Below, one piece after another: positions 11,764-64,000 of a DNA stretch of 64,000 nt (positions within the stretch are counted from its first letter, which is position 1; every line of letters starts with the position of its first letter). Location of the stretch: contig VCMS01000250.1 of NCBI GenBank assembly GCA_022539475.1, positions 82,233-146,232 of the forward strand, read 5' to 3'. The notes beneath the pieces were generated by a model. It had not been told where the DNA came from and did not search any database. It saw only the letters and a program-made list of their open reading frames with translations. Source of the DNA: Gracilaria domingensis. Lineage: Eukaryota > Rhodophyta > Florideophyceae > Gracilariales > Gracilariaceae. The translations under genes were made by a program, and so were the position numbers.

Positions 11764-12231
11764 CGTCTGTGTTCTGCAAAGTGGAATATAGTCTGTTCGC
11801 TTTGGAAACTAAGCTAGTTTTGGGGCTATTTGGGGCGCGCGAGGGGATGCCAGAGGCTGGCACTCAAAAAATTAAGAAATTTTGGAATATTAAATTCCAT
11901 TTCGCGCAGTTTAGTTCTTGGGTCCCCTAGTTTTTGTAGAGGTTCTACTTCGCCGCACCACCCTATTCACTCTTTTCCGCGACCCTCTCTCAAAACTGCG
12001 CTCGTGCTAGTTAACGTTTCCATTTTCTACCATGTTGCAATCCCAATCGCAACCCATCCCACCTCAATCATCCCATCACTTCTTCCCAGTCCACACCACC
12101 CCCGCTATTTACCCATTTCTCACCGATCACGCGTTCGCATCCTCTCTCTCCGCCTCCGCAAACGTCATTTTGTAGAAGTCAGGGGGACAACTCTCCCCCT
12201 TCTCGTATACCCGCCTCGCCCCAAAAAGGCT

Positions 12232-13161
12232 TCAAATCCCTCCCATCCTTCTCTCCTCCTGTCCCCTCAGAATTTCCTTCGCAGTCCGCGCTACCTCCGC
12301 CGCACTCCTAAACCCAGTCACTACCGGAGCTCTGACTCCCTCCAGCGGCACCTCCTCCACCACCTTCTTCATCTCCTTACGCCTCTTCTTCAGACGGCTC
12401 TTCCCATCCCCAACCCCACCACCCTTTGTCTTCGGTGTCACAGGGGACCCCTTCTGCACCGCCACCCTTCCCACACTTCCCTTTTCCGTCTTTCCCTCCA
12501 CACCTCCTTTCACCGTCTCCTCTTCGACCAATCTTTGCCTCTTGCCCAGCTCCTTCACCTCCTTCTCCAGCACGTCCAACTTCTCGTTAAGAACCCTATT
12601 CTCCTCCCGCAACTTTCCAACCTCCCTTCCCGCACACTTCACTATCCCATACACATGATTTCTCATCTCCACTCCCAATACTGACAACGAATTCAGCAGG
12701 CTCGAAATCGCCTCAACCGAAACACCACTACCACCCCCACTCAGCACCACACCGCCCATTTCCGTTACAATCTCCACGATTCAATCTTCCAGTTGCTTCT
12801 TCATCACCAACCCCAACATCCCCAACCTCGCCTTCACCTCCCCCACAAACCGCATCTCCCTGTCACCCTCTCCGCCCCCACTCTCTATCTGGTCTCCAAC
12901 CTCTAACTGACTCAGATGCACTGCACCACTTCTCTCCATTGCGACCCCCTCCACCTCCAATTCTACACCCTTCTCCACCTCATCACCATCCCCTCTCCTC
13001 GCCTCACACTTCTTTCCTTCATCGGCCACTTTCTTCTTATGCGACATCCGACCAGCCACCGTAATTACGTCCTCTTCCCTCTTAGGTGACGGCGTCGGCG
13101 GTACCTCCTTCCCCTCCAACAGCGCCAACAGCTCCTCATCCTTCACGTATTCGTTCGACAC
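12232..13161 (-). pseudogene. CC2 coiled-coil protein (A copy, nonsense and start lost)
   Basis: Aligns codon for codon (310 codons) with the intact copy at 55476-56405. Here the start codon ATG has become GTG and one codon in the middle (12781-12783) is TGA where copy C has GGA. The rest of the frame is open. See 55476-56405 for the protein. Confidence 0.85.
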
Positions 13162-13379
13162 CTTCAGAAGAAGAAGTAGTAGTTGGATCGAAGTTTCCGC
13201 TGCGATACAGTGCAATCGAGCTAAACTGTGCTGTCCAACCCCATTGTCCAACCACACGGGCTATATCCAGCACCATGATTGTCCTATTTCCCTCATCCCC
13301 TGTCCCGCCAAAACATCTACTGTAAACCTCCGCAACTTCCAGTATTTAAGCGCCACCCCTCTGTCCCCTCTTTCGCGCT

Positions 13380-13665
13380 CACATAGTCCCCACCCACCTC
13401 GCCTCGACCGGCAATATTTTTCTCTTCCACCATAACCTCACTCGATGGTTATAGCAAAACAGGAAGATATTGCCAGTGGAGGCAAGCTAGGGACTAGTGA
13501 TTGTACTTAGAGTAGCTCACCCTCTGTCTCGACTGGGGGCATCTTCTTCTTCCGTCACATTCTGTGTGGGTTGTGACAAAAAAAGAATATGTCACCACTC
13601 GACAGCGAATGGGTAACAATGATAGCACGTAGAGTAGTTCATCCTCCCTCTCATCGTCCACTAGG
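13380..13665. repeat. Serial hairpins between RPE and CC2 (A copy)
   Basis: Inverse-orientation counterpart of the hairpin series at 36090-36432 and 54890-55240. Two hairpins are complete. The third is cut by the deletion that also removed the 3' half of the epimerase gene. Confidence 0.7.
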
Positions 13666-13674
13666 GATATATTG

Positions 13675-13894
13675 GATCTGATACCATCAGATGACAGTCC
13701 AAAAACAATTTCGTATGCCTCCGCAACGCTTTCACAACAGGCGGTCCAACAGTAAGGTTCGCCACAAAATGACCATCCATTACATCTGTATGCAGCCACT
13801 CCGCTCCAGCCTCTTCCATTGCACTCGCTTCATCTGAAAGGCGAGCAAAGTCTGAAGCCAAAATTGATGGCGCTATAATTGAATGAGAATCCAT
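13675..13894 (-). pseudogene. Ribulose-phosphate 3-epimerase, N-terminal half only
   Basis: Translation from the Met at 13894 gives signature segments of ribulose-5-phosphate 3-epimerase, a TIM-barrel enzyme of the Calvin and pentose-phosphate pathways: [28 protein letters not shown] (with the metal/catalytic Asp) and [10 protein letters not shown]. Homology ends after about 73 residues; the sequence then jumps to 3'-flanking hairpin DNA. The usual protein is about 220-230 residues. Copies B and C keep only the complementary C-terminal half, so the ancestral element carried a whole gene. Confidence 0.85.
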
Positions 13895-14357
13895 ACTGAA
13901 CATCGATAACTTCAGTAACGCTAAACCCGTCCTTCCCAGACACACCCCCCTTTTATACCTCAATAAAAAAGAAGAATATGGCAATCCGAGTGAAGCTATA
14001 GAACCAGTTCAAGTCATTTATGAAGCCAAAATGGTTCCTTTCATCCTGTATTCAAGCTCCCCGTAACTGGTACTTTACAACTCAGGTTCGAAATCAGTTT
14101 CATTCATTGTATATTTTCTACTCTTCCACCTACTTTTCATAAAACATCATCACACTTTGTGGCTTGTAGTCTCATACAAGCCTTATCATTCATTCAGTAC
14201 AATCACATATCATACATTTCGCTCACTTTCACAAAGTGAATCATGTTCCCGTTCTGCGCTTCCCAACCGTTTGTACTTAAGTATCACTTTTTACCCCAGC
14301 AGTTCTCCGCCCCATCTTCCATTTTTATCGTCACACAAAAACAATCGAACACTTCCA

Positions 14358-15251
14358 ATGAACTCCCAGTCCGACATGCCTCCGACTCCGCCTCCGAGTC
14401 CCAGATACTTTGACGTCCCTCAGGCCTCATCTCCCACCCGAAGGACTCGGGACGTTATTGTTGGAAGGGGGCGTATAGGTACCATGCTGGCGAACGAAGA
14501 AGATATGGTCATTTCTGCACACGAATTCTGCAGCATGGCTGCTACCTTTCATCTTTCTGATGTACCGATACTAGTTTGTGGAAGAACGAACACCCTGGAG
14601 ACCGTAATTCAGGCTTGCCCTTATTCGCTCAGAGAGAGTATCGTTTTCTTCCAGAATGGAGACATCATACCATTGGTTTCGAAGCTCGGTGTGGACAAAT
14701 GTTCAAAAGTTGTCCTTTACGTTAGTGTCCCCTCAAGAAACGCAGCTCGGCAGGATGGTGTCACTCCACAAAGTCCAGATGGTCTCACTGTCGCAACAGG
14801 AAAGTGGGCCTCCAACGTTGCAGACAGGTTTAGGTCTATGGGTCTCACTTGCGGGGTTGTCGACGAAGTAACATTTCTCGTAAGCTATTATGAGAAGCTC
14901 GTGTGGCTATCAGCGTTCAACATCGTCGGGGCCTCAAGAGGTTTCATTCCTATGAACGTAGTCGCTACGGAGTGCAGTACGGGTGTGCTCACAATAATGA
15001 AAGAGCTGTTGAAGATAGTTTCGCTTAAGACAGGTACTACTTTCAACCTAGAAGAGACGGTTCTTGCATATGGGAAAACTCTCGTTGGCTTCCCTACATC
15101 TTTCTCCGACTTTCAGTTTAGGAACGCGTACTTCTACGACTTTTTCCGCCAAGAAAGAAACATCGTAGGCGGTGACCCCGCTCCTTTTCATACAAACTAC
15201 GTCAACGTTGTTAAGGAAAAGTTATCCCCCTCCCCATTCCCCCAGCTCTGA
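14358..15251 (+). CDS. Ketopantoate reductase-like dehydrogenase (A copy)
   Basis: 297 residues, the usual size for 2-dehydropantoate 2-reductase (PanE/ApbA family), which reduces ketopantoate with NADPH. After a Pro-rich leader of about 28 residues comes the dinucleotide-binding loop VIVGRGRIGTMLA (GxGxxG), then a beta-alpha segment ILVCGRTNTLETVI and VFFQNGD. Around two-thirds along, EKLVWLSAFNIVGA lines up with the catalytic Lys and the second active-site Asn of the family, but the first Asn position is Leu, so substrate use may differ. No stop interrupts the frame. I chose the Met at 14358 because upstream in-frame sequence looks non-coding. The gene is convergent in the reference direction with RPE and follows HAD-B. 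It lies inside the transposon in three copies. Confidence 0.65.
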   Translation: MNSQSDMPPTPPPSPRYFDVPQASSPTRRTRDVIVGRGRIGTMLANEEDMVISAHEFCSMAATFHLSDVPILVCGRTNTLETVIQACPYSLRESIVFFQNGDIIPLVSKLGVDKCSKVVLYVSVPSRNAARQDGVTPQSPDGLTVATGKWASNVADRFRSMGLTCGVVDEVTFLVSYYEKLVWLSAFNIVGASRGFIPMNVVATECSTGVLTIMKELLKIVSLKTGTTFNLEETVLAYGKTLVGFPTSFSDFQFRNAYFYDFFRQERNIVGGDPAPFHTNYVNVVKEKLSPSPFPQL

Positions 15252-15877
15252 GGTTAGAACACATGACTTTTCGGTGTTCTAAACCTTTTAGAGATAGTTA
15301 GATATAAAGTTTACTTTATCGAAATGACCTGTTCCTATTACATTACTTATCTTGTTTGTCCTTCTGTGGTTCAAATATGCCCTTTTAAATCATACATTCC
15401 TTATCACTAATACCTGGCTAAGTTTTTGCTAGATGGAAAAGGGTCATTCCACATCATTAAATTGCACGATACTAGTAACGAAACAAGTACAAAATTGCGA
15501 TGTTTCTGAAGAACTAAGCCTTTGCAATACTTGGGGCACCCGTATAAAGTAAGGTACACCTTTTATGGGTTTCAACCTTTAATGGATGTTGTTTTACTGA
15601 TCTTGATTTCTAAGCTCATGTTGAAGATATTCATAGTTTTCTTTACCCACTTGAACCCGTACATATAATTTATGACTAAATCATCCTTTCTTTACTGCAA
15701 ATCGATGCAAAAGCTTCTCGTCGTGGTAACGTTTTAAAACAGTACTACAATACCCGTATATGGTCGTTCTTACACTCGTTTTATACTAAGAAACACCTTG
15801 TGAACATCAATCACATCCTTCTCATTCGTATACTCACACCCATTTGCGAAACGAACCCTTTCGAAAGCTTTCAAAAC
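15252..15877. other. KPR/HAD-B intergenic region (A copy)
   Basis: AT-rich, about 625 bp, no coding frame. It is conserved with 33781-34407 in copy B, so it probably holds the HAD-B promoter and the KPR 3' region. No other structure was seen. Confidence 0.6.
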
Positions 15878-16750
15878 ATGTATAACTCAGAGGTTAGAGC
15901 CCAAGAAGTAACTCCTCAGCAGCTGGCTAACGAAATATTCGAAAATGGCTACGCCGTGATTAGTGATATTGACGGTACTCTAAAAAGAGCTGGGGAGAAC
16001 ATTCCTGCCGAAGCAGTCAAATGCATGAAGTACATCAATGCACGCGTTGGTTTCTGAATTGCTACTAGGCGAGATATAGAGGATGCCGAGAATTTCATGG
16101 AGCACCTCGGTGGCTACACTTTTGGCATCTCTGGAAACCAAGGCGCACGGGTGAGATTATCCAATGGCACCGAAATTGATCAGGACCTTGACAGGGAGGG
16201 CTACGAAAGATGTGCAGCCGAATTTGAGAGACTTGCTCTCTCCTTAAATGAATCGCACGGACTTCACGAAGAGCGTCAACAAGCAGTGATGAGCACTAGA
16301 AAAGACAGTGGACTCCCTAACTTCACGTACAATGGACTGTCGAAGTGGAAAACAGAAGTTAACTCCGATATTTCAAAAGTGTTGACATCCTTTCCGAACC
16401 TGGTTGCGTACCCTCAAGATGAAAACTGTGACATAGGGGACATTCGTTTCACGAAAAATAGTGGGGCGCTAGCCTTGGTTGAAAACGACCCGCAGTTCGA
16501 CACACATTTAATCGTTGCTTTCGGGAATGCTTCCAATGATGGCCCTCTATATGAAATGGCAACCCTGACAGTTCATGTGAAGGGAGACGACCATCCAGCA
16601 GCGGTAACATATCTTGTTGATGGGGTGGAGGACGTGCATGAGACCATCAGAAGGGTGGCAGAACTGTACGGGTACAGAAAATGCAAGTGTCAATGGTGTA
16701 GAAATGCTCTTGGAATTTGTTTCAAGTGCTACGATGCCTGTAATACTTAG
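15878..16750 (+). pseudogene. HAD-B phosphatase-like protein (A copy, one nonsense codon)
   Basis: Same 291-codon frame as the intact copy at 33780-32908, with the motif-I sequence SDIDGTL intact, but the codon at 16055-16057 is TGA where copy B has GGA. The remaining frame is open to the stop at 16750. See 32908-33780. Confidence 0.85.
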
Positions 16751-16802
16751 CTAGGATATGAGATCTCAGTAATAAAAGTGTCGTATATATCTCAATACCC
16801 TT

Positions 16803-17714
16803 TTATGAATCATGGTGGTTTTTATCGTGCTGATTTTCCTCGTAGCCGTACAACAGAGCCACCAACATAATTGTCGAATGTACATCCTCCACGCTTTTGA
16901 ACAGGTTGTGTACTCCACCCGGGATACAATCTTCTTTGACGTGAACGCCGTACACGCCTAACTCATGCAAAGGCCCGTCGCTCAAAGCACTTCCGAACGT
17001 CACGACGTCATCCGTATCAATAAATCTCGGTTCATTATCCACAAGATTTTCTCCTCCGCTTCCTTTTGTGTATCGCTTGTCCACAATTTCGCAACTTTTA
17101 TCGCCGGGATAGATAAAAAACGCATCCATCTTCTGCAACAGGTCCCCAATAGCAGAATCCACTTCTTCTTTCCACTGCCACAGTTTGTTGTACACGAAAT
17201 TGGGAAGGCCACTATCACTTCTGGTCTCCACGAACCCCTTGTCATCATCATTCACAATACCATGCCTCCTATTCAAATCCCTTGCCAGGAACAGTAGTCC
17301 GTCAACAGTGTGGTCAAGGGTGTGATCATTGAATGCACCCTTAATTTCCCTCTCGTCAGAGAAACGCAGGAAAGCTCCATGATTCGCCGAGACACCAAAC
17401 TTATAGTCTCCGAGTCCTTCCATTTTCCCCTCCACGTCGCCCACATCACCCCCTGTGACAAGTCCGAAACCAACACGTTCGTCAATGAACTTCATACACT
17501 TCACAACTTCTTCTGGAATTGACTCTCCTTCTCTTCTCAACGTTCCATCAACGGAACTTAATATACCGTAACCATTGGCATATATGAACTTAGACAAGGT
17601 ATTTGGTGAAATTTCCGCCAAGTCTCTCTGTTCCTCTGCCATTTTTCCTGATAGAGTCACCATACTGCCACAAGTACCGCATAGACAGGAACTGCATAGA
17701 CTTCTCAGTTTCAT
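16803..17714 (-). CDS. HAD-A, HAD-fold protein lacking the nucleophile (A copy)
   Basis: 303 residues. It resembles HAD-B (trehalose-phosphatase-like HAD) throughout: GYGILSSVDGTL, FGLVTGGD, GVSANHGAF, SGLPNFVYNKLW, VTFGSALSDGPLHE and a final VEDVHSTIMLVALLYGYEE. In HAD enzymes motif I is DxDGT, the first Asp being the nucleophile. Here it is SxDGT in all three copies, so hydrolysis by the usual mechanism is not expected. The N-terminus is Cys-rich (CSSCLCGTC), possibly metal-binding. Its stop is 52 bp from the HAD-B stop and the two genes converge. It could be a pseudoenzyme partner of HAD-B (inference). Confidence 0.7.
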   Translation of the reverse strand: MKLRSLCSSCLCGTCGSMVTLSGKMAEEQRDLAEISPNTLSKFIYANGYGILSSVDGTLRREGESIPEEVVKCMKFIDERVGFGLVTGGDVGDVEGKMEGLGDYKFGVSANHGAFLRFSDEREIKGAFNDHTLDHTVDGLLFLARDLNRRHGIVNDDDKGFVETRSDSGLPNFVYNKLWQWKEEVDSAIGDLLQKMDAFFIYPGDKSCEIVDKRYTKGSGGENLVDNEPRFIDTDDVVTFGSALSDGPLHELGVYGVHVKEDCIPGGVHNLFKSVEDVHSTIMLVALLYGYEENQHDKNHHDS

Positions 17715-17978
17715 ACGTCTCTTAAAAGCAACCTTAAGTGCAGTTTCAGAAGTGTTAGGACGCTACATGTCCAAATGCGAATTGAATGGTGCCATCGATG
17801 ATGTTAACGATACCGAGCAAGTGGCATGTTGCAATTAGACGCAACTGAACCAAAGACGTATGACATTGGTTCAATTACCAGCCTGCCGCACCTTTTATAT
17901 GTTCATATGTATAGCCTTGCAATAGTATACTACTCTTAATACTCGCAAGACACTCATAATTTACTAAACATCTCATTC

Positions 17979-19286
17979 TCATCCACTTCGAGGCGCTCGC
18001 AGCCTCATTATTGGCAAATCGTCATCACTACTACTCTCGAGCACTTCAGTTCTACCGGTCTCCGCTTCCACACCAATCTCCACGACCACTTGGTCTTCTT
18101 CCATGTCAACCGCCCCACCCTCCTTATCGGACAACAGTTCATCCTCCGCCTCCTCCTCCTCGTCACCATTGACAAACGTGGGTCGGAAATCCCGCACCCG
18201 ATGAACAGCATCAGGTAGTGCGTAGCCCTCTGGTACCATGTACATGTGGTATCTAACCAGCAAATCCATAGACTCGGGCCTATCCACCTTGTCCTTCCCA
18301 CTTGCTCCAGCATGTGTCACATCAGCACGGCCCACGAATACAGAGTACGGTGGGATTATTATCTTCTTCGCTGGATACACCTCCGACATCACTCGTAACT
18401 GTTGGTTGTTCATCCCCACCAGTTGATGGCTTCCAGCGCTCACCCAGAGAGGAAAGCCCTCTTTCCCAGAGGCTAATGCAAAATATCCGGGGTTACCAGT
18501 ATTCATTGTTTCCTTCATAACCAGAGCACTGAAGTCGGTGTGCAGCGTCTGGCGCTTGCACTTTCTCGTCGTCCCCATAAATCGACCACCAGTTTTCGGA
18601 GTGTACATCTTCACAGCTTCCCTTTCATTGTCCCATAGTCCCAAAGCCGCAGCAATTGTACCCATTCGAACATCAAGTAAAGCACGCGACCTTACAACCC
18701 ACCTGAGCTCCTCATTATCCTCCGGCTTCTCCAACGTACCCCAACGTGTCGACATCACTCTCCCCTCAAATGATCTATCGCTACCGTCCTTCCATCCTTC
18801 ATCATCGTTGATTATCTGAACAAACGACTTCTGTTCCTCCCCTTTCCGTATATCCGGCATCGCTCCATACTCATTCTCGAAGAAGTCCACCAACTTCCCC
18901 GACACATCTCCGAACTCCCGAAAGTCTTCCAACTCCTCCCATTTAGGGACATCGTTATCCGTCGCAAATCTATCAAGCACGCAATATCCATTCTGCCTTA
19001 GCTCAGCTTGCATTGGGGCGAAGAACATTTGCCCAAATTCGTCATGCTCCTTCGCAGCAACCCACAGCACCTCTTCTTCATCCATACCTGTCGGCCGAGT
19101 ACGAGGATACTGCATACCAAATGTATCCGTCCGTAGGCGGTGTTCAGCCCTTGCAACGTGCCAAAAGACAGGATGGTGTACATCTTCGAGATTCGAGACA
19201 CTTAGCAGCTCCGACCTATGTCCCTTCGGCAAGTGAATGACTCTGAGCCAGGGGTCCTTGTGCTCAATTACGTTCTTACCTTGTCA
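17979..19286 (-). CDS. 2OG-Fe(II) oxygenase-like region, ancestrally fused to ParB-like (A copy)
   Basis: Open from just after the ParB-like stop to 17979. No ATG lies near the start: the frame begins with non-Met codons continuous with the ParB-like frame. Numbering from Leu-Pro-Lys-Gly-His at 19232, the jelly-roll metal site is His231-Thr-Asp233 and His307 (in VTHAGA), followed by an Arg327 (VRYHMY) suited to bind the 2-oxoglutarate carboxylate. That is the HxD...H...R pattern of Fe(II)/2-oxoglutarate oxygenases. The C-terminus is acidic (runs of Glu and Asp). The substrate is unknown. Oxygenases of the TET/JBP group occur in some fungal and algal transposons, but I cannot place this one there by eye. 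Confidence 0.6.
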
Positions 19287-21896
19287 TTACTGCGGTCTCA
19301 GTCTGACATACCCGCACCATGATGGGGTCGGTGGGCCATCATATGGGTCTCCTCGAACAATTCCGTGCTCCTCAGATTCCGGAAGAGCTGTAGGTAACTC
19401 GTCATCAAATGACCCCCCACCTGTCTCTTGCGGATCGTCTGGCGCAGCCTCTTGCTCGAAAGTGACAACCCGTAGAACTGTCACACCAAGAAGCTCTTCG
19501 TCATCCACAAATGCAGAACTGCCTGCGTTCTCTGCATTCCCTCTCTCTTCCAATGCCACGAACTGAACCTTCATCGACCTTCCTCTCAGCACATGTTCAT
19601 TTAGTTGAGACATCAGGTCATCCGGTGTCATGCTGTTCAGAGTAGATCTCATCTGTTGTGTGAAAGTCTTTCTCCGTTTCTTCCTCGGCGGAGCCCGCTG
19701 TTCTTCTTCAGAGCTATCCAGAACTTCTATTGCACCTCGATTTCGGCCGTGTTCAATTTCCCTATAACTCACCTGCGCCCGTTCTCGTGCACTTCTTCGC
19801 GGCTCCCCTTCTTCACTGGCAGATGTTGCAGCAGCAGGAGCGGGAGTCCTCCTTTTCGTCACGGACTGCTTCACTGGTGCGGGGGGCGGAATTACCTTGA
19901 GCATCGTCCGCAATCGATTCTGAACGGAAGTAGCGGCAGTTCTCATTGAGTTCATCCTGCTCCGAACACGCGGCAATGTGTTGAAGTTCACAACTTGTCC
20001 CAAAACGAACTGATTCACAGCTGCGTTGTTGTCTGGGTCTTCAACGTCAACTTCATTCGATGGAGCAGACAGACTGACTTCGCGTTTGAGGAACACTTCC
20101 ATCGACTCTTCCTCGTTCAGTTCATTCTTCACTGCTCGAGCAGCGCGGAACAGAGACACTGCTCTATCATAAAAGAAACCTCGAACCTCCTCAAAGCTTT
20201 TCCATGGCTTTGTCTTCGTCGACTTGCCCTTCAATAGAAACATCTGAAGACAATCAAGAATGAAGGAAACCTCCTCGGCATCCAAGACATATGGCGGAGT
20301 ATGGGACACATGTGTGAGACCTATGTCACTCAGACTCTCACATATATCCTCGAAATGGGCCAGCATTCCCTCACAAGACATGAGTTGCAGGGCGACATTG
20401 GCATATCTCAGATACTGACGCTCTTGCACAGTCCCATTCAGTTGGCTCTTCTTCAACACTTCTGTAACTTCTGCAGGATCCATGTCTGCTGGCGTAACCC
20501 CCTCAACATCTTCAGTTAGAATGGCGACCACACTAACTATAGAGTTTATCTTGTCTGCAAACATCATCCTTCGCATGGTACTCGTCGACTCATTGAGGTA
20601 CGAAGCAACGCACAACAATTCCTTCATCCCAATGGGCCTCCCATCTCTTCGTAACAGCAGATTGCAACGCCAAAACTTGGCTAATCTCTTCCACTTCGGT
20701 GCACCAGTCGCTGCCAAATATTGTATAGCTTTCAGACCATGCAAATCATCTACAATGAAGCACTTCTTCGTTAGGCGTCCCTTGTCAGTATCCCTCTCTC
20801 CCGTAGTAGCATCTTGTAAGGCCACCACTGGAGAACCCATCGACTTCACTATCCACCGCTCCTCCATACTCTTCACAAGGGCTTCAACGTGGCGTTTACT
20901 TGCCACACGGAGTAAATTGGGCGGAGTATCCACAAGAGTGATGTCAACAGTAACAACAACCATCCGGTAGTGATTGAGGTTCACCTTTGGTACCTTCTGA
21001 CGAATTCGTCTGTACGTCTTGCTCCGAGTAGGTGTCCCTTGTGTTCCAGACCGCTCGCCAGAAACACTTGAACGTGCCATTCTTGCGGACAGAAGCACAA
21101 CGTCATCGTCCTGCTGCTTCGCAGTTTGTCCTGCAGTTTGGGGTACAGATGGACCAGCCCCTTGTGCGGATTGCGCATCCGCGTCTGGAAGGGGACCTTT
21201 CATGATCTCATCTTCCTCTTCTTGCACAGCAGTCCCGTGCTGAACCGTCTGTTTCGACGCAGAAGTTCCCCTTGTGTCGACGGTCTGATTCATCGCAGGA
21301 GATGCCCTTTTCGACGCAGTGGGCTCCGTAGCGGAGGTAGACCTTGTTTGACCTGTCCGCTTCGTAGCTGGGGATGATTTCGTCTCTTCAGTCCGCTTCG
21401 TAGCAGACGATGGACCGGCCCGCGGAGGTCCTACTGATGCGCTACCTCTCGGTGTTGATGAACTTCGAATTGGCTCCGTGCGGCTTGTCGGCGTCATCAC
21501 CTCACTCATAGCGCTCACCGTTTCACGCTTGGACGCCGGAATGCTGGCTGCCACCGGTTCCATCATTTTCTCATCCCAAGGAGAGGCCGTCCGGAGATCC
21601 TGGATGTATGGTGGAAGATCCCGGCCCTCCCCCCGGTAAGGGTAGAACGTCTGACCGCTTCGACTGATGAGAATATTATGAACCACCACAAGACCTGGGT
21701 CCAATTGCTTCCCGTTCAACTCGCGGCGTAGAACACTCCCAATTCCATGCAACAACGCTTCCCCGACTATCACCTTTCCTTCATTCTCAATATCCATCTG
21801 CAGAGAAACCCGCATTCCACCTTGCAATGATCGAGTGCTCCGCCGAGTGCGAGGAGTCACGCTTTGCGTACGCTTTCGAACACGAGTTGGCTTCAT
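19287..21896 (-). CDS. ParB-like domain protein (A copy, key motif altered)
   Basis: 869 residues from the Met at 21896. A basic N-terminus (MKPTRVRKRTQ) and a long Ser/Thr/Ala/Pro/Lys-rich stretch lead to a ParB/sulfiredoxin-like region (about residues 275-420): a ribosomal-like start KVNLNHYRMVVV, RHVEALVKSMEER, and the signature segment, here FIVDDLHGLKA where copies B and C have FIVDGLHRLKA. The change of Gly-to-Asp and Arg-to-Gly in this motif suggests loss of nucleotide or DNA contacts. The C-terminal third is charged with a Lys/Arg patch near APPRKKRRKTFTQQ. Two stop codons (TAA TGA) end it here, but copy C reads through at these codons, so the downstream oxygenase was once part of the same protein. 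Confidence 0.65.
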   Translation of the reverse strand: MKPTRVRKRTQSVTPRTRRSTRSLQGGMRVSLQMDIENEGKVIVGEALLHGIGSVLRRELNGKQLDPGLVVVHNILISRSGQTFYPYRGEGRDLPPYIQDLRTASPWDEKMMEPVAASIPASKRETVSAMSEVMTPTSRTEPIRSSSTPRGSASVGPPRAGPSSATKRTEETKSSPATKRTGQTRSTSATEPTASKRASPAMNQTVDTRGTSASKQTVQHGTAVQEEEDEIMKGPLPDADAQSAQGAGPSVPQTAGQTAKQQDDDVVLLSARMARSSVSGERSGTQGTPTRSKTYRRIRQKVPKVNLNHYRMVVVTVDITLVDTPPNLLRVASKRHVEALVKSMEERWIVKSMGSPVVALQDATTGERDTDKGRLTKKCFIVDDLHGLKAIQYLAATGAPKWKRLAKFWRCNLLLRRDGRPIGMKELLCVASYLNESTSTMRRMMFADKINSIVSVVAILTEDVEGVTPADMDPAEVTEVLKKSQLNGTVQERQYLRYANVALQLMSCEGMLAHFEDICESLSDIGLTHVSHTPPYVLDAEEVSFILDCLQMFLLKGKSTKTKPWKSFEEVRGFFYDRAVSLFRAARAVKNELNEEESMEVFLKREVSLSAPSNEVDVEDPDNNAAVNQFVLGQVVNFNTLPRVRSRMNSMRTAATSVQNRLRTMLKVIPPPAPVKQSVTKRRTPAPAAATSASEEGEPRRSARERAQVSYREIEHGRNRGAIEVLDSSEEEQRAPPRKKRRKTFTQQMRSTLNSMTPDDLMSQLNEHVLRGRSMKVQFVALEERGNAENAGSSAFVDDEELLGVTVLRVVTFEQEAAPDDPQETGGGSFDDELPTALPESEEHGIVRGDPYDGPPTPSWCGYVRLRPQ

Positions 21897-22540: not shown

Positions 22541-22574
22541 TGAAACCTCCCAAAACACTTCCTCCAGCAATTCC

Positions 22575-23215: not shown

Positions 23216-23259
23216 CGGGAGGAGTGTTTTGGGAGGTCTCCGGAGGGTACCAGAATGTG

Positions 23260-25080: not shown

Positions 25081-25082
25081 AG

Positions 25083-53606: not shown

Positions 53607-53658
53607 AAGGGTATTGAGATATATACGACACTTTTATTACTGAGATCTCATATCATAG

Positions 53659-54117
53659 CTAAGTATTACAGGCATCGTAGCACTTGAAACAAATTCCAAG
53701 AGCATTTCTAAACCATTGACACTTCGGAGCTGCGTTTCTTGAGGGGACACCAACGTATAGGACAACTTTTGAACATTTGTCCACACCGAGCTTCGAAACC
53801 AATGGTATGATGTCTCCATTCTGGAAGAAAACGAGATTCTCTCTGAGCGAATAAGAGCAAGCCTGAATTACGGTCTCCAGGGTGTTCGTTCTTCCACAAA
53901 CTAGTATCGGTACATCAGAAAGATGAGAGGTAGCAGCCATGCTGCAGAATTCGTGTGCGGAAATGACCGTATCTTCTTCGTTCGCCAGCATGGTACCTAT
54001 ACGTCCCCTTCCAACAATAACGGCCCGAGTCTTTCGGGTGGGAGATGAGGCCTGAGGGACGTCAGAGTATCTGGGACTCGGAGGCGGAGCCGGAGGCATG
54101 TCGGACTCGGAGTTCAT
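53659..54117 (-). pseudogene. KPR N-terminus joined to the HAD-B C-terminus
   Basis: From the Met at 54117 the first 130 or so codons are KPR-like (GRGRIGTMLA, FFQNGDIIPL). At about 53727 the frame runs into the last 22 codons of HAD-B (CQWFRNALGICFKC) and its stop. A deletion therefore removed the KPR C-terminal half, the intergenic region and most of HAD-B. The in-frame fusion is fortuitous. Confidence 0.9.
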
Positions 54118-54514
54118 TGCAAGTGTTCGATTGTTTTTGTGTGACGATAAAAATGGAAGATGGGGCGGAGAACTGCTGGGGTAAAGAGTGATACTTAAGT
54201 ACAAACGGTTGGGAAGCGCAGAACGGGAACATGGTTCACTTTGTGAAAGTGAGCGAAATGTATGATATGTGATTGTACTGAATGAATGATAGGGCTTGTA
54301 TGAGACGACAAGCCACAAAGTGTGATGACGTTTTATGAAAAGTAGGTGGAAGAGTAGAAAGTGTACAATGAATGAAACTGATTTCGAACCTGAGTTGTAA
54401 AGTAGTTGTAAAGTACGAGTTACGGGGAGCTTGAATACAGAATGAAAGGAACCATTTTGGCTTCATAAATGACGTGAACGGGTTTTATAGCTTCACTCGG
54501 ATTGCCATAATTAA

Positions 54515-54835
54515 AAGGATGGAGTTGGGTTGCGCCCGAATACGTCTATAAAGGTCGTCGAAGCACTTATGAAGGAAGGAGTTGTAGACATGTTATTGTT
54601 GATGACGGTGGAGCCAGGGTTTGGAGGACAGGCGTTTATGGAGGGTGTTCTTGATAAGGTGCGCCATGCAAGGGAGTTGTACCCAAGAATAGGGATACAG
54701 GTGGATGGGGGTATTGGACTGAGTACTGTGAAAGGAGTAGTGAAGGCCGGTGCAAACATTTCAGTTGCAGGATCTGCCATCTTTGGCTCGAGTAACCCAG
54801 CTCATGTCATAGCTGGTTTTCGAAAGGTTGGTTAG
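54515..54835 (+). pseudogene. Ribulose-phosphate 3-epimerase, C-terminal half only (C copy)
   Basis: Same fragment and same 5' deletion junction as copy B (35708-36028), so the deletion predates the separation of B and C. VEPGFGGQ, VDGGIG and VAGSAIFG are present. Confidence 0.9.
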
Positions 54836-54889
54836 AGATAGTAGCATAAATTTATTGTTTATTACATTGTTACCTTTACGTGTTATCAC

Positions 54890-55240
54890 GACTATATTCT
54901 CCGTCTCCATTGGAGATGTATTTCTCTTGTATCACAACCGGGAAAGGATATGAGAGACCATCAATATATCCCCAGTGGACGCTGAGAGGGAGGATGAACT
55001 ACTCTACGTGCTATCATTGTTACCCATCCGGCGTCGAGTGGTGACATATTCTTTTTTTGTCACAACCCACAAAGGATGTGACGGAAGAAGAACATGCCCC
55101 CAGTCGAGACAGAGGGTGAGCAACTCTAAGTACAATCACTAGTCCCTAGCTTGCCTCCACTGGCAATATCTTCCTGTTTTGCTATAACCCTCGAGTGGGG
55201 TTATGGTGGAAGAGAAAAATATCGCCGGTCGAGGCGAGGT
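54890..55240. repeat. Three related hairpins in series (C copy)
   Basis: Counterpart of 36090-36432, with arms preserved despite scattered base changes. Confidence 0.7.
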
Positions 55241-55475
55241 GGGTGGGGATTATGTGAGCGCGAAAGAGGAGACAGAGAGGTGGCGCTCAAATAGTGGAAG
55301 GTGCGAAGGTGTACAGTAGATGTTTTGGCGGGAAATGGGATGAGGGAAACAGGGACAATCATGGTGCTGGATATAGCCCGTGTGGTTGGACAGTGGGGGT
55401 GGACAGCACAGTTTAGCTCGATTGCACTGTATCGCAGCGGAAACTTCGATCCAACTACTATTTCTTCTTCTGAAG

Positions 55476-56405
55476 ATGTCGAACGGATACGTGAAGGATG
55501 AGGAGCTGTTGGCGCTGTTGGAGGGGAAGGAGGTACCACCGACACCGTCACCAAAGCGGGAAGAGGACGTGATTACGGCGGCTGGTCGGATGTCGCAGAA
55601 GAACAAAGTGGCTGATGAAGGAAAGAAGTGTGAGGCGAGGAGAGGGGATGGTGATGAGGTGGAGAAGGGTGTAGAATTGGAGGTGGAGGGGGTCGCAATG
55701 GAGAGAAGGGGTGCGGTGCATCTGAGTCAGTTAGAGGTTGGAGACCAGATAGAGAGTGGGGGCGGAGAGGTTGACAGGGAGATGCGGTTTGTGGGGGAGA
55801 TGAAGGCGAGAGTGGGGATGTTGGGGTTGGTGATGAAGGAGCAACTGGACGATGGAATTGTGGAGATTGTAACGGAAATGGGCGGTGTGGTGCTGAGTGG
55901 GGGTGGTAGTGGTGTTTCGGTTGAGGCGATTTCTAGCCTGCGGAATTCGTTGTCGGTATTGGGAGTGGAGATGAGAAATCATGTGTATGGGATAGTGGAG
56001 TATGCGGGAAGGGAGGTTGGAGAGTTGCGGGAGGAGAATAGGATTCTGAACGAGAGGTTGGACGTGCTGGAGAAGGAGCTGAAGGAGCTGGGCAAGAGGA
56101 AAAGATTGGTGGAAGAGGAGACGGTGAAAGGAGGTGTGGAGGGAAAGACGGAGAAGGGAAGTGTGGGAAGGGTGGCGGTGCAGAAGGGGTCTCCTGTGAC
56201 ACCGAAGACAAAGGGTGGTGGGGTTGCGGATGGGAAGAGCCGTCTGAAGAAGAGGCGTAAGGAGATGAAGAAGGTGGTGGAGGAGGTGCGGCGGGAGGGA
56301 GTCGGAGCTCCGGTGGTGACTGGGTTTAGGAGTGCGGCGGAGGTAGCGCGGACTGCGAAGGGGATTCTGAGGGGACAGAAGGAGAGAAGGATGGGAGGGA
56401 TGTGA
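55476..56405 (+). CDS. CC2: coiled-coil protein (C copy, intact)
   Basis: 309 residues from MSNGYVKDEELLALLEG. Highly charged (Glu, Lys, Arg, Val, Gly). Residues about 170-225 form a strong coiled coil (VGELREENRILNERLDVLEKELKELGKR in heptads); the C-terminus has a basic patch (GKSRLKKRRKEMKKVVEEV) like a nuclear-localisation or nucleic-acid-binding region, then a short Ala/Arg segment. No catalytic motif. It is the last gene before the right terminus in three copies. The start was chosen at 55476 because ATG is conserved in B, although an open frame extends 96 bases upstream. A structural or DNA-binding accessory protein of the element is likely. Confidence 0.65.
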   Translation: MSNGYVKDEELLALLEGKEVPPTPSPKREEDVITAAGRMSQKNKVADEGKKCEARRGDGDEVEKGVELEVEGVAMERRGAVHLSQLEVGDQIESGGGEVDREMRFVGEMKARVGMLGLVMKEQLDDGIVEIVTEMGGVVLSGGGSGVSVEAISSLRNSLSVLGVEMRNHVYGIVEYAGREVGELREENRILNERLDVLEKELKELGKRKRLVEEETVKGGVEGKTEKGSVGRVAVQKGSPVTPKTKGGGVADGKSRLKKRRKEMKKVVEEVRREGVGAPVVTGFRSAAEVARTAKGILRGQKERRMGGM

Positions 56406-56872
56406 AGCCGGTTTGGGGCGAGGCGGGTATACGAGGAGGGGGAGAGTTGTCCACCTGACTTCTACAAAATGAGGTTTGCGGAGACGGAAGAGAGGATGCG
56501 AACGCGTGATGGGCGAGAAATGGGTAAATAGCGGGGGTGGTGTGGACTGGGAAGAAGTGATGGGATGATTGAGGTGGGATGAGTTGCGATTGGCATTGCA
56601 ACATGGGAGAAAATGGATAGGCAAACTAGCACGAGTGCAGTTTTGAGAGAGGGTCGCGGAAAAGAGTGAATGGGGTGGTGCGGCGAAGTAGAACCTCTAC
56701 AAAAACTAGGAGACCCAAGAACTAAACTGCGCGAAATGGAATTTAATATTCCAAAATTTCTTAATTTTTTGAGTGCCAGCCTCTGCTACCCCCTCGCGCG
56801 CCCCAAATAGCCCCAAAACTAGCTTAGTTTCCAAAGCGAACAGACTATATTCCACTTTGCAGAACACAGACG
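56406..56872. mobile_element. Right end of element C
   Basis: Matches the other three right ends and finishes CACAGACG at 56872. Confidence 0.9.
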
Positions 56873-58011: not shown

Positions 58012-60092
58012 ACACTCAAGAAATGTTGTCTAACATCCCCCAGAACATTCTTTAAACACAGAGGTAGCAGTTGGGCCAACTTCTTTGTAAACAGTTTCTA
58101 TCTCTGGCCACCCCTTGACACATCCGTACTTAGAAGGCTCACAACCGTCAACACCCAAGCGTCCAAACTTGCGAGCAACAGTATTGCGCCATCTAAAAAG
58201 GTGCCCGTATCCTTGTCTTCCACATCATACCCAATAAATTCCTTCAGTACTTGTACCCCAACACGGTTTCGGAAGAACAAGTCTTGATCTTCCGTCGGCA
58301 TATCCTCGACATTGTCCGCATTGGAGTACTTTAGACGAACAAATGGGGCTTTTCTCCACCATGAAGTGTTCGGTACACCATTTTCGTCAACACTCAGTAT
58401 GTTCTCCTGCGCTTCCTTCAACTGCATTGTGAGTTCTTCAGCATTCTCTTCCACCAGTTTTGTTCTTCTCCAAATCAGATCGTGCCCCAGGAGCAGAAAT
58501 AGTTTATCCCTCGTATTTCTCTTCCAAACGCCTACGACATCACTCATGGTCTGCCGCATTCTCTGCCTAAGGCACATATCTTCACAAAGTTCCAGTATAC
58601 ACCTGTCCGTAAGAGATGCTTTTCTAATACTTCCCAGCTCAACTCCTTCAACTCGCTTTCAACCTTTTTCTTCAGCAAAGCATCTGGCCCCCCCTCTACC
58701 GACGGTGTGATCATGCCAAAACTGCCCAAGAGCTCCACGGGGTTTTTAGGAATCATGTATGAACCACCTTTCTCCGGCTCAATAAGGCCTTCCCCGCTCT
58801 CAGTTGCGTATTCCACCTTCTCGGCACGGTTACCCCAATTTCGGGTGAGCGACTCACCTTCGAGCCATAACTCACTTGTTTCTCTCCTTGACCACGTCAG
58901 CATGTTGTGATACACTGCTCGAGCAACCCCTCGAAACTCGTCGTACACCTCAATTTTATGCTTCTTTCGACCTGTCTGCCCAGGTTCACCAGCACGTGTA
59001 CTCCTATCTCCGTCCTGTTTTAGTGCCCCCCTTAGCCCTTCAATGACTAGATCCTTCTCCTCAAGCCTCCCTTTCAAAGCCGTACTCTGCTCTTGGGCGA
59101 CCTTCACTAGAATACCCCGAACGATCAAGTCCTCTTGTAGCGTCTTAACCTTTTCTTTCAAGCAATTCAGTTCATTTAAAAGATCACGTCTGTTCATAGA
59201 GGTTGAATTCACACCAGTGTGGATATTTTTCGGTATTTCCCTAGCCTCTTCGGCGACAGGCCCCGGTAATGCCGCAGGATTCGGTGTTATTTCGTTATCG
59301 GAACTATCCTCATGTGCCATATCCTTGGACACGAGATGCTGCAGGCGTTCTGTGTCCACCCTTGGCACTGCTCCGAGCTCCAACTCCCGTGTCTGTCCTC
59401 CTCCATGGCATCGTATATCAGATGAATTGGGCCTCGTACGAGCTGCAACGGCCCCCGTTCTGGAAAGAGGGGAAGGTCGAAGAGTAACTCGCCTATCAGT
59501 CGTCTCTCGATTTTTTATTGTCTTTCTCCCTTGTCCGGACCCATTGCGAGGCATAATACGATTCATAGCGGCACCAGTTCTAGAAGAGAAGGAAGGACGT
59601 GACGATCTTAATATATTAGGGTTCTCATAAATTCTCGTCATTGTCCCTTGTGGTCCAGATCCACTGGGGAGCGTAACCAGCGCCCCAGTAGCTCCGGTCT
59701 TCGATATCGGCCGGGTACATGAAGGTTTTGGTGTCATACGAACCTCTTCAGTCCCAGTTGTCATTCTCTCCTGTCCAGACCGGGTGGGCCGAGTTACCTT
59801 ATCTTCTTGGGGAGCAGAGACAGATGCACGATTTGCATTATCGGCAGTTGACGGCACGACATCGCTCGCTGATGCACGAATTCTTGACGCAATCCCGGAA
59901 AACACTCCGCTGCGAGATGGACGAGAGAGTACTGTAGAAGGACGCCGACTGACTCTCTCCTTCGTCGAGGACGACTTCCGTTTAGGAAGTGCGGTGCTTG
60001 TAGCCTGATTCGTATCATCCGATGCCCTTCTCTTCTTCTCTCCACTCTTGTTCCGCTGCGTACTATTTCGCTTTCTCGGCGTTATACCCATG
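58012..60092 (-). pseudogene. CC1 (D copy, frameshifted and C-terminally truncated)
   Basis: Shows the native N-terminus, MGITPRKRNSTQRNKSGEKK, absent from C. A frameshift near 58630 separates this from the following 58577-58098 frame, and homology ends at 58012 before the C-terminus. Otherwise as 41937-44210. Confidence 0.8.
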
Positions 60093-60337
60093 TTGTGGAG
60101 ATAAACAGGGCAATGAAACGAAATTGTTGGGAAGACAGGGGGTGGGGGGGGGGGTGCATGGTTCAGATATTCCGGGAGACTCCGCAGTTTCTGCTTTTTA
60201 GGAATTTGAGATGCCCAATGGGTCGCAAATATCGCCGTTACAGATGAAGAGCTCCAGTGTAAATGTACAAAAACGCGTATTGCAGGCAGCTGCAACATTC
60301 ACAAGCATATTTACTTTCTATTCGGTACTGAACTCAT

Positions 60338-63300
60338 CTATTGCTCCAATGTCACAGCCCAGTCCCAGGCGTACTGCTCTCCGTAGTTGAAATACAACTC
60401 TTCGCCGCTCTCAATATCTCTTACTGCTCTACAACGAAGTAGAGCATAGTTAGAAAGGTCGGACTTAAACTGTATCACGGACTTTGCTTCCATCATCTGC
60501 ACATTGGCAGTTCGAGTCCTGTTCGACCGGGGCTGCGATAAATCGGGATCCCCGGCATGATATCCGGCGTCGTTAATGTAGCCCCCGATACAAAAAGGCG
60601 CCAGGACAATGTAGACTTCGCTCTCCTTTCTATCCTCAGCCTTTCCTGGTCTGTCCCTCAGGTGCAGAAACTCCGAACCAGTCACGGTGACCATCATAGA
60701 AAACAACTTGTACCGCACAGGAGTTGCTCCGAGACAGCCACTTCCATACGTTAATTGTCTTTCCTTCCGGTTCGTCAGATCCGTGTATACCAAAGTTCCA
60801 TAAACCTGACAGACACTTTCCCCAGCCAATATCTTATGTTCCGTGAACACCCCCATACCAGCACGGGGATGTCGAATCTTAGAAGATGCTACATGTAAGC
60901 GATAGCGATTGGCTTCAACAGTCAACAACATATGCATATCCATTAGATTCAGAGCTCCTCGGTACTTCTTATCCCAAAGATCTACAGTATGCTGTTTACA
61001 CTTTTCGACAAACTCCCAGTCCTTTCAGTATCTTCCTAGGAACTCAGTACTATGTGCAGGCATCACTTGGTACTAAGGGTATCCAAATGGAGCCTCCGAT
61101 TCAAGCCGACTTCGGTCCCGATATGGAACCCGTTCATATGTCGTTGAAGCCGCATCCACCACCTCCTGTTCAACCACGATATCATTCTTCCCCCCGCGAA
61201 GAACTTCGGCCATAAGAGTCTTTATATGGTGCTTCGCATGGCTGAAACATGGCCTATTCTTCCCGCACCCCAAAAACGTCCTATGCTTTGTCAGCGAAAG
61301 GCACGCCATACCCGTAGAAAACGTTCCCGCGAACATGTCCATGACAAGATCACCCGGTCTTGTGAACCGACATATCAACTCTTTCATCACCTCCCTGGAC
61401 TTCTGCTCCGGTCTTATGTACTGCCCACTTGGTACTGAACTACCTGGCTCATGTACCTTCCATGTCAACCACTCCCCCGCTCTCGGTTTTGGCACCCGGT
61501 CAATTACATTCCTGTTAGCCGGGAAAGTAGAAGGAATGAAATTGTTCTCCTCAAATGGAGTAAGACTGGCTTCCTCCGATGGTCGCAATCCACGCTTCAC
61601 CCCATGAACGGCGTACTCCGTTACGGGCTGTATCCCAAACTTCCGTGGATTTCCGCCAACATTACTTCGATCCCGGATGAACACCAGTGCATTCCCATCC
61701 ACTTTAAACGAAGGCATGAGTTCTGGCTTACCTTCGCTTCCAGCGCCATCTTTCGTACTCGCCGTTTCCGAGATTATCCTGTGCCAAACATGAAACTGTG
61801 CCATGGCACAGAATATAATGAAGTGCCCACCTGACCGAAGCGCGGAACTTATTAAGTCAGCCGTACGGATCATGTCTTCCTCACTGAAGACATCGTGACC
61901 ACTATTCCGTTTGTTCCTCTTCCTTCGAGTGTTAAAGGGAGGGTCTGTTAGGACAAGCTGTGCCTCACCCCATAAAATCTCACTCTGATTCACAAACGTT
62001 TCGTGTGTGTGCCTCAGGTCCTTCATGTCACAGTTGTACGCTACAAAGTGTGACTTTCTCATCCCCTTCCACACCTTGTCCATATTCATTCGAAGGAGAC
62101 TGGATATCCCCTTCATGGGCGGCTCAATACCAGTCTTTTGGATGTTGTAACCGGCAACCCGAGATTCATGCTCCGCATGATTCACCGGTTTCTCGAAGTA
62201 GTCGATATCGGAGCTCACGAGGTCCATATACTCTCGACGAGGTGGGGATGGGGCAGACTTGGTCGAAGAAGGTTCGGCATTACGGGAAGATTTAGGAGTT
62301 TTCGTCAGTTCGATATCGGGTTTCGCGTGAATGCCCACATTGAACCCTGCCGTATGACGCATATCCTGTATCGGTTTCCATAGTAACTCCGAAAAGTTCT
62401 GAAATCGTGCAGGCCACTCACCGGAGTCAGATCCAGATACGGTATCCATCCGTATCTCCGAAAACTCTATCCAGTTCCTCATCTGATCAACCCGTAAGCT
62501 ATAAAGGCTATCGTGGGTGCATATGGTTTCGAGGTCTGTCAAAAATTCCTTAGCCAGTATTCGGAGGTTTTTATCGCATTCATCACTCAAGGTCTCCACC
62601 GATCCACTAGTACTGCTCTGTGGCACATCCTGTGTGTTGAATCGAGTACTCTGGCTTGGCGGAGCATAACCAGACTCCCGTGTCTCTAGCGCTGTATACT
62701 TCAACGTCTGCATATTCATGTAAATGTATGGTTTCACCATGTGCTGAACGTTCGTGTATCCAAGATAAGCCGCAAAACAACTCCATGCCCATACGACCTC
62801 AATGATAGCGAATCCCAGTCGATCGCAATTGTCTTTGGAGAACGACGTAAAAGTGGGTATGTACACAGATGGTGCATGGTTCACTTTTCCTTTCTTTTTC
62901 GGTTGTTTCTTCTTCATCATTCTGATGTTGTCGTTCTCTCCCATTATGTGGCCGAGGTATGATAAGTATATAACGACTTCAAATGGGTTCACAGCTGTTG
63001 GTGGGATGAACACTGTCGTCTTCAGAACCTGCTTTCTTCTGGTCATGAAATAACGAACCAGGCATCGCACCAGTAGGTATATACCCATATCCATAGAGGG
63101 AAGGAAAAAATCGTAGTCTCTGGTCCTCATCCGCGTCCTTCTTGTCAAGAAGTTTCGTTACAAGATATCGTTGCTCCACAGGTTTGTTATTCACAACACT
63201 CTTTCGCAGCTGTTGCAGTGTCAAGTTCTGCAGGTTCTTGGAGTTAGTGGCCTCCTCAAACATCTTCTATGCCTCCGGAATATCCTTATAGTTCTCGGCG

Positions 63301-63473
63301 CAGAACTCTATTAGCCCTCTAAACCCCACGTCCCGTGGCCGATCAGGGCCTCCATCGTTGTTTGCCAAAGCTTCGCGAAGAACCAAGAAAAGTCTGACAT
63401 ATGCATATACCGCCGGAGGTGGAGCACTCATGTCGATAGGATGTATCTCTTCTCCGTCATCGGTGGAATCCAT
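60338..63473 (-). pseudogene. DNA methyltransferase-SET fusion (D copy)
   Basis: From MDSTDDGEE at 63473; an unrecognised N-terminal region (GLIEFCAENYKDIPEA) is cut by TAG just after it and by frameshifts to about 63148; from there one frame runs to 60338 with two nonsense codons (61073-61075, TAG for CAG; near 61027, TGA for TGG). Motif IV TDPPF (near 61936-61946) precedes motif I DMFAGTFSTG (near 61310), the order of beta-class adenine-N6/cytosine-N4 DNA methyltransferases, a mainly bacterial type. The SET part has GMGVFTEHKILAGE, GGYINDAGYH and RDIESGEELYFNYG (60381-60402), the parts that normally bind AdoMet and the target lysine. Target specificity of either domain is unknown. The SET stop is 245 bp from the CC1 start. 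Confidence 0.8.
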
Positions 63474-64000
63474 CACTTCAGCGCAAACAACGGAGGCGAG
63501 CCTTTAAATGGCGACTTACGCTGGGCACCCGCGCTTTCGGCAGCTCCTCCCAGCGCACTGCCAGTCTCGTCCGTGTCCGTGTCAGCTCGCTTATGAGATC
63601 GGTCTCCGTGCCGCTTTGAGCGGGTGCCATAGCGTCGCGTGTCGGCCAAGTCGGGATTCGGAGCTATTGCAAAGGTCGCGTGTTGTGCTAATAGTTGCGG
63701 ACAAAGTGGTTGTGAAGCGCTAGTTTTCTCTAGTTTGATATATGTGCACGGCATGTGCAGCGACATCATTGCCAGAAGTGCCCGGAGGAGTGTTTTGGGA
63801 GGTCTCCGAAGGGTGCCAGAATGTGACCAGAACAGGCCCGCGGGCGGGGGTCGGTCGTGTTAAGGTAGGTACCCTAACACGACCGGACCCCCCGCGCCCG
63901 CGGGCACGTTTTGGGCGATTTTTTGAAAAATGTGGGATTTTATGCCCGCGGGCGGGGGGGATCCGGTCGTGTTAGGGTACCTATTCTAACACAACCGACC
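63474..64000. promoter_or_regulatory. Control region and palindromes (D copy, cut by the window edge)
   Basis: The 80-bp leader lies at about 63500-63575 in minus orientation, then the shoulder, then two palindromes near 63855 and 63970, the second imperfect (GTACCTATTCTAACAC). Confidence 0.7.

Follow-up and report, generated by a model that had tools for sequence, protein, structure and literature searches.

A giant Plavaka-like transposon of the red alga Gracilaria domingensis with epigenetic and metabolic cargo genes

Giant CACTA/Plavaka-like elements are already known. Chondrus crispus carries enlarged En/Spm (CACTA) families of 16 to 20 kb with 4 to 5 open reading frames (ORFs) (Kojima et al. 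2013, cited in PMC6431247), and Amoebidium has Plavaka-flanked giant repeats of up to 50 kb whose genes match dinoflagellates or red algae (PMC11244446). Furthermore, TET/JBP-bearing fungal Plavaka, KDZ and other elements combine a transposase with a 2-oxoglutarate (2OG)-Fe oxygenase for which an anti-silencing role has been proposed (PMC12730594). The present study describes a giant transposon that encodes a Plavaka-type transposase, measures about 22.7 kb at full size, has about 480 to 500 exact ends in the genome and was found in a 64,000-nucleotide stretch of Gracilaria domingensis DNA (the window; C250:82233-146232, on contig VCMS01000250.1, one contig among 680). Genome-wide searches covered the 77.9-Mb assembly. 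In the reference copy, which spans 22,644 bp of contig C34 without N (C34:184904-207547), the gene order is transposase, CC1, a DNA methyltransferase-SET protein, a palindrome array, a ParB-like/2OG-oxygenase-like protein (ParB-2OG), HAD1, HAD2, a Rossmann-type protein, ribulose-phosphate 3-epimerase (RPE) and CC2.

As far as the cited passages describe these systems, our element shares with the Chondrus families a red algal host, a related transposase group, a large size (16 to 20 kb there) and several extra ORFs. The 4 to 5 Chondrus ORFs, which the citing text leaves unnamed, differ in number from the roughly ten genes here, and the overlap in genes may be substantial. As in Amoebidium, a Plavaka transposase adjoins a long intron-poor gene cluster; unlike our element, the Amoebidium repeats hold many tyrosine recombinases in tandem clusters, and the passages on them mention no methyltransferase-SET, ParB-2OG or RPE gene (PMC11244446). 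The pairing of a Plavaka-type transposase with an oxygenase-like protein recalls the fungal elements, and the 2-bp duplications of PlavakaA resemble those seen here, whereas the ends differ and our oxygenase-like protein is without a Pfam match and has HxD in place of the PE-type HxE (PMC12730594). The bdelloid rotifer N4CMT likewise joins a bacterial-type N6_N4 methyltransferase to a eukaryotic chromatin domain, but it is described as a host gene with a chromodomain and an SPPY motif, while the gene here is transposon-borne, with a SET domain and DPPF/DPPY (PMC8885841). The DNMT retrotransposons of Symbiodinium and charophytes are also mobile elements carrying a DNA methyltransferase; theirs is reported as a C5-cytosine enzyme, not as DNA and SET activities in one ORF (PMC5890265). 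Similarly, the SET-bearing HarbingerS/MuDR elements of oomycetes place SET on a mobile element, as cited not with both activities in one ORF (cited in PMC12730594). In our search of open-licence papers, with Repbase outside its scope, we found none that describes a transposon with a methyltransferase-SET fusion or with this set of genes. An earlier note on this stretch was aware of no such combination in any described element; this agrees with the literature searched, whereas giant elements as such have been reported in Chondrus and Amoebidium. The epigenetic core of the present element is unusual, and it is conserved.

Self-comparison of the window resolved three main blocks and one fragment of a single repeat (copies A to D). 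All four align collinearly with the C34 copy, with aligned pieces 84 to 99% identical and deletions that differ per copy, in agreement with the earlier note, which had read them as one gene order missing different parts. The copies, their termini and their transposase genes are as follows.

11764..24116, minus strand: copy A, extending from its right end as far as the methyltransferase N-terminus, where the left end of copy B interrupts it
11764..11783, minus strand: right terminus of copy A
24117..37650, plus strand: copy B, 13,534 bp, both ends present, internally deleted, flanked by AA on each side
24117..24136, plus strand: left terminus CGTCTGTCTCTTGCAGATGC of copy B, 478 exact copies genome-wide
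37631..37650, plus strand: right terminus CACTTTGCAGAACACAGACG of copy B, 501 exact copies genome-wide
37651..56872, plus strand: copy C, left ~724 bp missing, gene order otherwise nearly whole
56853..56872, plus strand: right terminus of copy C
58015..64000, plus strand: copy D, a fragment whose alignment continues beyond the window to ~66542
38752..41871, plus strand: Plavaka-type transposase (PF18759) of copy C, one in-frame stop at 40660
26303..29111, plus strand: Plavaka-type transposase of copy B, spread over three frames

The sharp terminus noticed earlier, at 11764, is a right end; the left end at 24117 had not been named. Copy B has A-type sequence on one flank and C-type sequence on the other, and since it joins the two, the AA match around it may be due to chance. 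Positions 1-11205 of the window hold an older diverged copy in plus orientation, with a transposase region 86 to 89% identical to the others and its right end at 11205. The ~1.1 kb separating copies C and D (56873-58014) had no listed match to the element reference.

The terminal sequences of this repeat family are CGTCTGT...ACAGACG. The left end is CGTCTGTCTCTTGCAGATGC and the right end GCAGAACACAGACG, and CGTCTGT begins both when they are read inward. A genome-wide search for copies with both termini returned hundreds of exact 20-base ends (478 left and 501 right), and the reversed control gave 0. Pairing of 89 of the 100 left and 99 of the 100 right ends listed, at a limit of <26 kb, yielded 45 clean pairs. 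Five of these measure 22.3 to 22.9 kb and one 24.3 kb, which bears out the earlier estimate of 22 to 24 kb for an intact element, while 12 fall at 10.1 to 10.8 kb and another 12 at 13 to 14.9 kb. The size classes of internally deleted copies are recurrent, as if a few deleted forms had spread as non-autonomous families. Target-site duplications were sought in 30 pairs (29 of the 45 clean pairs plus copy B). The 2-bp flanks were identical in 19 of the 30 compared to 64 of 870 shuffled partners (binomial 7e-15 if independent), with many different dinucleotides among the matching flanks. This identity indicates that the element inserts with 2-bp duplications. A 3-bp duplication was ruled out, as flanks agreed over 3 bases in 1 of the 30 pairs.

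The transposase, recognised already in the earlier note, matches the Pfam Plavaka family PF18759 with 65 to 70 bits against a cut-off of 26.3 (E 3e-19 in the window). Scoring of the best 123 of 672 candidates genome-wide gave 123 matches, of which 21 are open over exactly 1100 codons without a stop, and none of the 14 prokaryote control genomes had a match. The copy at L011 is open through 973 codons, and the ratio of nonsynonymous to synonymous substitution rates (dN/dS) of the transposase is 0.59 to 0.67. A common intron or stop was ruled out, since the stops of the C34 copy and copy C differ in place. In Plavaka transposases, the second D and the last E are described as enclosing C(2)C and H(3-4)H motifs, fungal termini are described with TGT..ACA (PlavakaA) or CATCA..TGATG (PlavakaB), and CACTA/EnSpm elements with CAC..GTG termini and 3-bp duplications (PMC12730594). 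In our transposase (P0004), CHRC and HLLDH occur and are candidates for these motifs. The CGTCTGT..ACAGACG ends match neither PlavakaA nor PlavakaB termini, and this element has neither CAC..GTG termini nor 3-bp duplications; its duplications lie within the 2 or 3 bp given for Plavaka (2 bp in 19/30, 3 bp in 1/30). Since the ends are unlike both fungal Plavaka groups, only the name Plavaka-like is justified. Thus, the earlier reading as a giant Plavaka-like transposon with epigenetic and metabolic genes stands for transposase, cargo and ends, with the reservation that these ends are unlike the fungal ones.

The epigenetic core of the element lies in the window as follows.

44200..47100, minus strand: methyltransferase-SET gene of copy C, broken, final part of SET deleted
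60341..63503, minus strand: methyltransferase-SET gene of copy D, full length, 3 stops
17982..21905, minus strand: ParB-like/2OG-oxygenase-like gene of copy A, aligning over all 1308 codons of the open L090 copy, 2 stops
48506..52401, plus strand: ParB-like/2OG-oxygenase-like gene of copy C, frameshifted
47322..48161, unstranded: palindrome array of copy C, in the space separating the divergent methyltransferase-SET and ParB-2OG genes
29240..30031, unstranded: palindrome array of copy B
22244..23547, unstranded: palindrome array of copy A

Both PF01555 and PF00856 were found in the methyltransferase-SET sequence of the window, which confirms the two domains named earlier. In an open copy outside the window (L089) it forms a single 1055-codon frame without a stop, with PF01555 at residues 516-753 (E 3e-15) and SET at residues 883-1042 (E 2e-7); the PF00856 scores were 31.6 and 26.4 bits against a cut-off of 22.4. 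Two stops interrupt the gene in C34, and the arrangement they suggest, methyltransferase and SET as separate genes, was ruled out by the one frame in L089. Exactly 1055 open codons without a stop were found in 8 of 150 scored methyltransferase places. The catalytic motif, DPPF in this family (family 1) and DPPY in a sister family (family 2), lies upstream of an FxG-type motif. A DPPY-type motif before an FxG-type motif points to a permuted adenine-N6 enzyme and, judging from this motif, the methyltransferase probably acts on adenine N6. Three copies compared gave dN/dS values of 0.40, 0.46 and 0.42 versus 0.75 to 1.46 in two shifted frames. At 61073-63157 of the window, the methyltransferase matches the long phage DNA-methyltransferase family phrog_67 (E 2e-19), a resemblance that might reflect a viral or bacterial origin.

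The ParB-2OG gene is open for 1308 codons in the L090 copy, on the plus strand in reference order. The protein has a ParB-like motif (HVEAL...VDGLHR) and a C-terminal 2OG-like motif (HTD...HAGAS...RYHMY); the ParB and 2OG names of this 1308-aa protein are putative and follow these motifs. HTD and the later H in HAGAS are common to families 1 and 2, and HxD...H is widespread among 2OG oxygenases. Among the best 97 of 699 candidates scored, 66 copies have the 2OG part without a stop. This part showed no profile similarity to TET/JBP, and an AlphaFold model of it from two sequences was unusable (predicted local distance difference test, pLDDT, 28). The palindrome array is about 0.8 to 1.3 kb long. 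Its core (window 47417-47474 and similar) is GTGTTAGGGTAGGTACCCTAACAC, which contains a TTAGGG/CCCTAA pair resembling telomere repeats.

That the epigenetic core is part of the element and was not captured recently is best supported by its recurrence in diverged families. An element of family 2 lies just beyond the window (~80-94 kb in window coordinates), with a transposase remnant that is 29% identical (E 5e-5). Compared with family 1, its CC1 is 29 to 36%, its methyltransferase-SET 27 to 30% (over ~1000 columns, E 1e-104) and its 2OG part 39 to 45% identical, and the three genes keep the order and strands of family 1. The ParB-like motif is conserved as well. At the equivalent divergent intergenic place, family 2 has two near-perfect palindromes with 48-nt arms, whose matches to family 1 are of at most 11 bases (E 0.4 or higher). 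This family 2 copy has frameshifts and one stop. The methyltransferases of family 2 (mostly 90 to 99% identical) and of a third group (56 to 63%) gave 64 matches genome-wide. In at least 20 of 57 family-2/3 methyltransferase places, a Plavaka match lies on the opposite strand 4.4 to 10.2 kb away, in the geometry of family 1, and in 14 of these 20 the distance is 5.6 to 6.6 kb. The pairing drew on the best 123 of 672 transposase candidates, among which 37 of the 57 places had no such match; one transposase (C140) is counted twice among the 20, and two contigs also show another geometry. With the few search patterns used, viral and prokaryote contigs yielded no relatives.

We lean towards the view that this is a cut-and-paste giant transposon whose methyltransferase-SET and ParB-2OG proteins jointly keep the element expressible. 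Judging from the anatomy, the Plavaka-type transposase would move the element via its short terminal repeats. On the chromatin of the element itself, the methyltransferase-SET protein would mark DNA as well as a lysine substrate that is probably a histone, and the ParB-2OG protein would be guided to the palindrome array in the common divergent promoter, where it would remove or alter a host silencing mark. Regulation or loading could naturally occur at palindromes that separate two divergent genes. Together, a writer and a possible eraser could then keep the element expressible. Judging from the sequence, the cargo may have an anti-silencing or self-marking role; the element carries the HAD, Rossmann and epimerase genes in addition.

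Several observations weigh against this reading. DNA and histone marks can equally silence. For the ParB part, a profile match is absent in Pfam, NCBIfam, PHROGs and PDB, leaving the motif (with DGxHR) alone, and for the 2OG part the same four databases gave no relevant match either, with Pfam searched at E up to 10 and PDB with a two-family profile; of the ParB-like/2OG oxygenase label in the earlier note, the motifs are present and the names lack profile support. The dN/dS of ParB-2OG is 0.61 to 0.91 in six comparisons and 0.84 to 1.01 in the three shifted frames tested, with constraint visible against copy A only. The values for HAD1 (0.41 to 1.10) and the Rossmann protein (0.56 to 3.54) scatter around 1. 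When C34 serves as reference, part of the cargo dN/dS values lie above 1 (ParB up to 2.87), and several do not fall below those of the shifted frames. Internal deletion is frequent, with 12 of the 45 clean pairs only 10.1 to 10.8 kb long. Finally, end pairs of at least 19 kb share flanks in 2 of 10 cases versus 17 of 20 for shorter pairs (Fisher p 0.001), and none of the five pairs of 22.3 to 22.9 kb has matching flanks. These mismatches reflect either recombination between the long copies or an assembly that swapped flanks across repeats exceeding read length.

Some of these points would also be expected under passive gene capture, in which the transposase, perhaps with CC1 and CC2, matters and the other genes hitchhike and decay. 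The remaining genes of the element lie in the window as follows.

41940..44223, minus strand: CC1, no known family, 29-36% identical pieces in the second element family
31896..32855, plus strand: HAD phosphatase 1 of copy B (copy A, 16803-17762, minus strand; copy C, 52647-53606, plus strand)
32908..33978, minus strand: HAD phosphatase 2 of copy B, Cof/HAD-IIB type (copy A, 15680-16747, plus strand)
34408..35655, minus strand: Rossmann-type protein of copy B, GRGRIG motif (copy A, 14070-15248, plus strand)
35714..36022, plus strand: RPE C-terminal half of copy B (copy C, 54521-54829)
13673..13903, minus strand: RPE N-terminal part of copy A
55533..56402, plus strand: CC2 of copy C, no known family (copy A, 12235-13104, minus strand)

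Passive capture is supported by the internal deletions in many copies, by the dN/dS of HAD1, the Rossmann protein and ParB-2OG, which is near 1 or like the shifted-frame controls, and by RPE, which is halved in many places and is 57.6% identical to a separate RPE gene on C17. In contrast, CC1, methyltransferase-SET and ParB-2OG keep their order in a family only 27 to 45% identical, the dN/dS of methyltransferase-SET is well below that of its shifted frames, and long open frames persist in many copies. Passive capture is reasonable for the HAD, Rossmann and RPE genes; as an account of the whole cargo we find it rather doubtful. Within-family dN/dS gives no proof of selection on all cargo, as many values are near 1 or like shifted frames. 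For the remaining genes, it was 0.40 to 0.64 for HAD2 (three comparisons), 0.57 and 0.76 for CC1, 0.46 and 0.77 for RPE, and 0.40 to 0.82 with one value of 1.30 for CC2. Since many copies evolve unconstrained after insertion, only the low, frame-controlled dN/dS of methyltransferase-SET is informative.

The two HAD proteins of the earlier note are borne out; they are of HAD-IIB type, ~40 to 45% identical and on opposite strands. Its ketopantoate reductase-like label for the Rossmann-type protein fails, as the search of Pfam, NCBIfam and PDB gave no ApbA/PanE or other family match and nothing beyond the GxGxxG-type motif (GRGRIG) was found. The RPE assignment is correct; in the window the gene occurs in pieces, with an N-terminal part in copy A and the C-terminal half in copies B and C, and it is complete elsewhere. 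Among the best 150 of 444 RPE candidates scored, the profile is matched over positions 2-198 in at least 38 places besides C320, of which 26 are free of stops, and many further scored places match the C-terminal half only. RPE as a mere remnant was ruled out by these full-length ORFs. Two places examined (L086 and L087) adjoin a Rossmann or CC2 gene, and the RPE matches, many of them half-length, are probably located in element copies. The L086 protein is an NCBIfam rpe equivalog (E 2e-69), 57.6% identical to the C17 gene and 41.7% to the plastid-type RPE on C320, whose closest PDB entries are 7b1w and 1rpx, which we take to be of algal and plant origin. A broken copy of the plastid-type gene (L085, C187:153973) is ~83% identical in DNA to that of C320. 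Eleven LHC matches were found in the genome, and one LHC protein has 7y5e, presumably a Porphyridium complex, as its best PDB match. The LHC matches and the plastid-type RPE suggest a red algal host, and on their account a fungal host, as the Plavaka name might imply, was set aside. GC skew is strong near the CC2 gene end (-0.47 at 12001-14000, +0.33 at 36001-38000 and +0.39 at 54001-56000) and switches sign with CC2 orientation.

Compared with a system that keeps the element expressible, the opposite outcome, in which the element methylates its own DNA and chromatin, either to keep its copies few or to conceal itself in silent chromatin, seems unlikely to us. Writer enzymes alone do not reveal the sign of a mark. 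Retrotransposon DNMTs are reported to methylate CG de novo and could self-methylate (PMC5890265), and the bdelloid rotifer methyltransferase of the same Pfam class is described as depositing marks tied to silent chromatin (PMC8885841). On the other hand, an oxygenase-like, possibly mark-removing protein lies opposite across the same palindromes, and the high number of ends speaks against tight self-silencing, both of which are weak arguments.

A more elaborate form of the favoured reading, in which the cargo keeps the element expressible, would be a self-addressed chromatin system, by analogy with bacterial ParB on parS. There, the ParB-2OG protein would load on the palindromes and spread over the element as an eraser or base-modifier, while methyltransferase-SET would write a paired DNA and histone mark from the same promoter. 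The fast-changing palindromes as address and the ParB-like domain as reader would co-diverge such that each family marks only itself, and the HAD, Rossmann and epimerase proteins may supply a sugar-derived base modification. We regard this version as quite improbable. That the gene order was produced by mis-joined repeats, which the earlier note named as a refutation and which is partly borne out by the poorly shared flanks of the long pairs, by copy B joining A-type to C-type sequence and by N runs close by, is very improbable, since the order is repeated in several copies, transposase and methyltransferase keep their order in families 2 and 3 elsewhere, short copies have identical ends with matching flanks and each fusion reads as a single ORF. 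The data point to a possible swapping of flanks around the longest copies rather than to an invented interior.

The published transposon-borne epigenetic genes that we found are single enzymes, namely C5-cytosine methyltransferase, SET or TET-type oxygenase. In the present element, DNA methyltransferase and SET are parts of the same protein, and an oxygenase-like protein is encoded on the other side of palindromes that keep their position, though not their sequence, between two families. To our knowledge, the DNA marks of red algae have been little studied, and this transposon, with its writer and possible eraser, gives a natural example on which such mobile systems can be tested. Besides, a central-metabolism gene, RPE, has spread on a transposon (151 scored matches), which can mislead gene annotation. 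The gene content suggests that the transposon supplies its own tools for controlling its marking and packaging in the cell.

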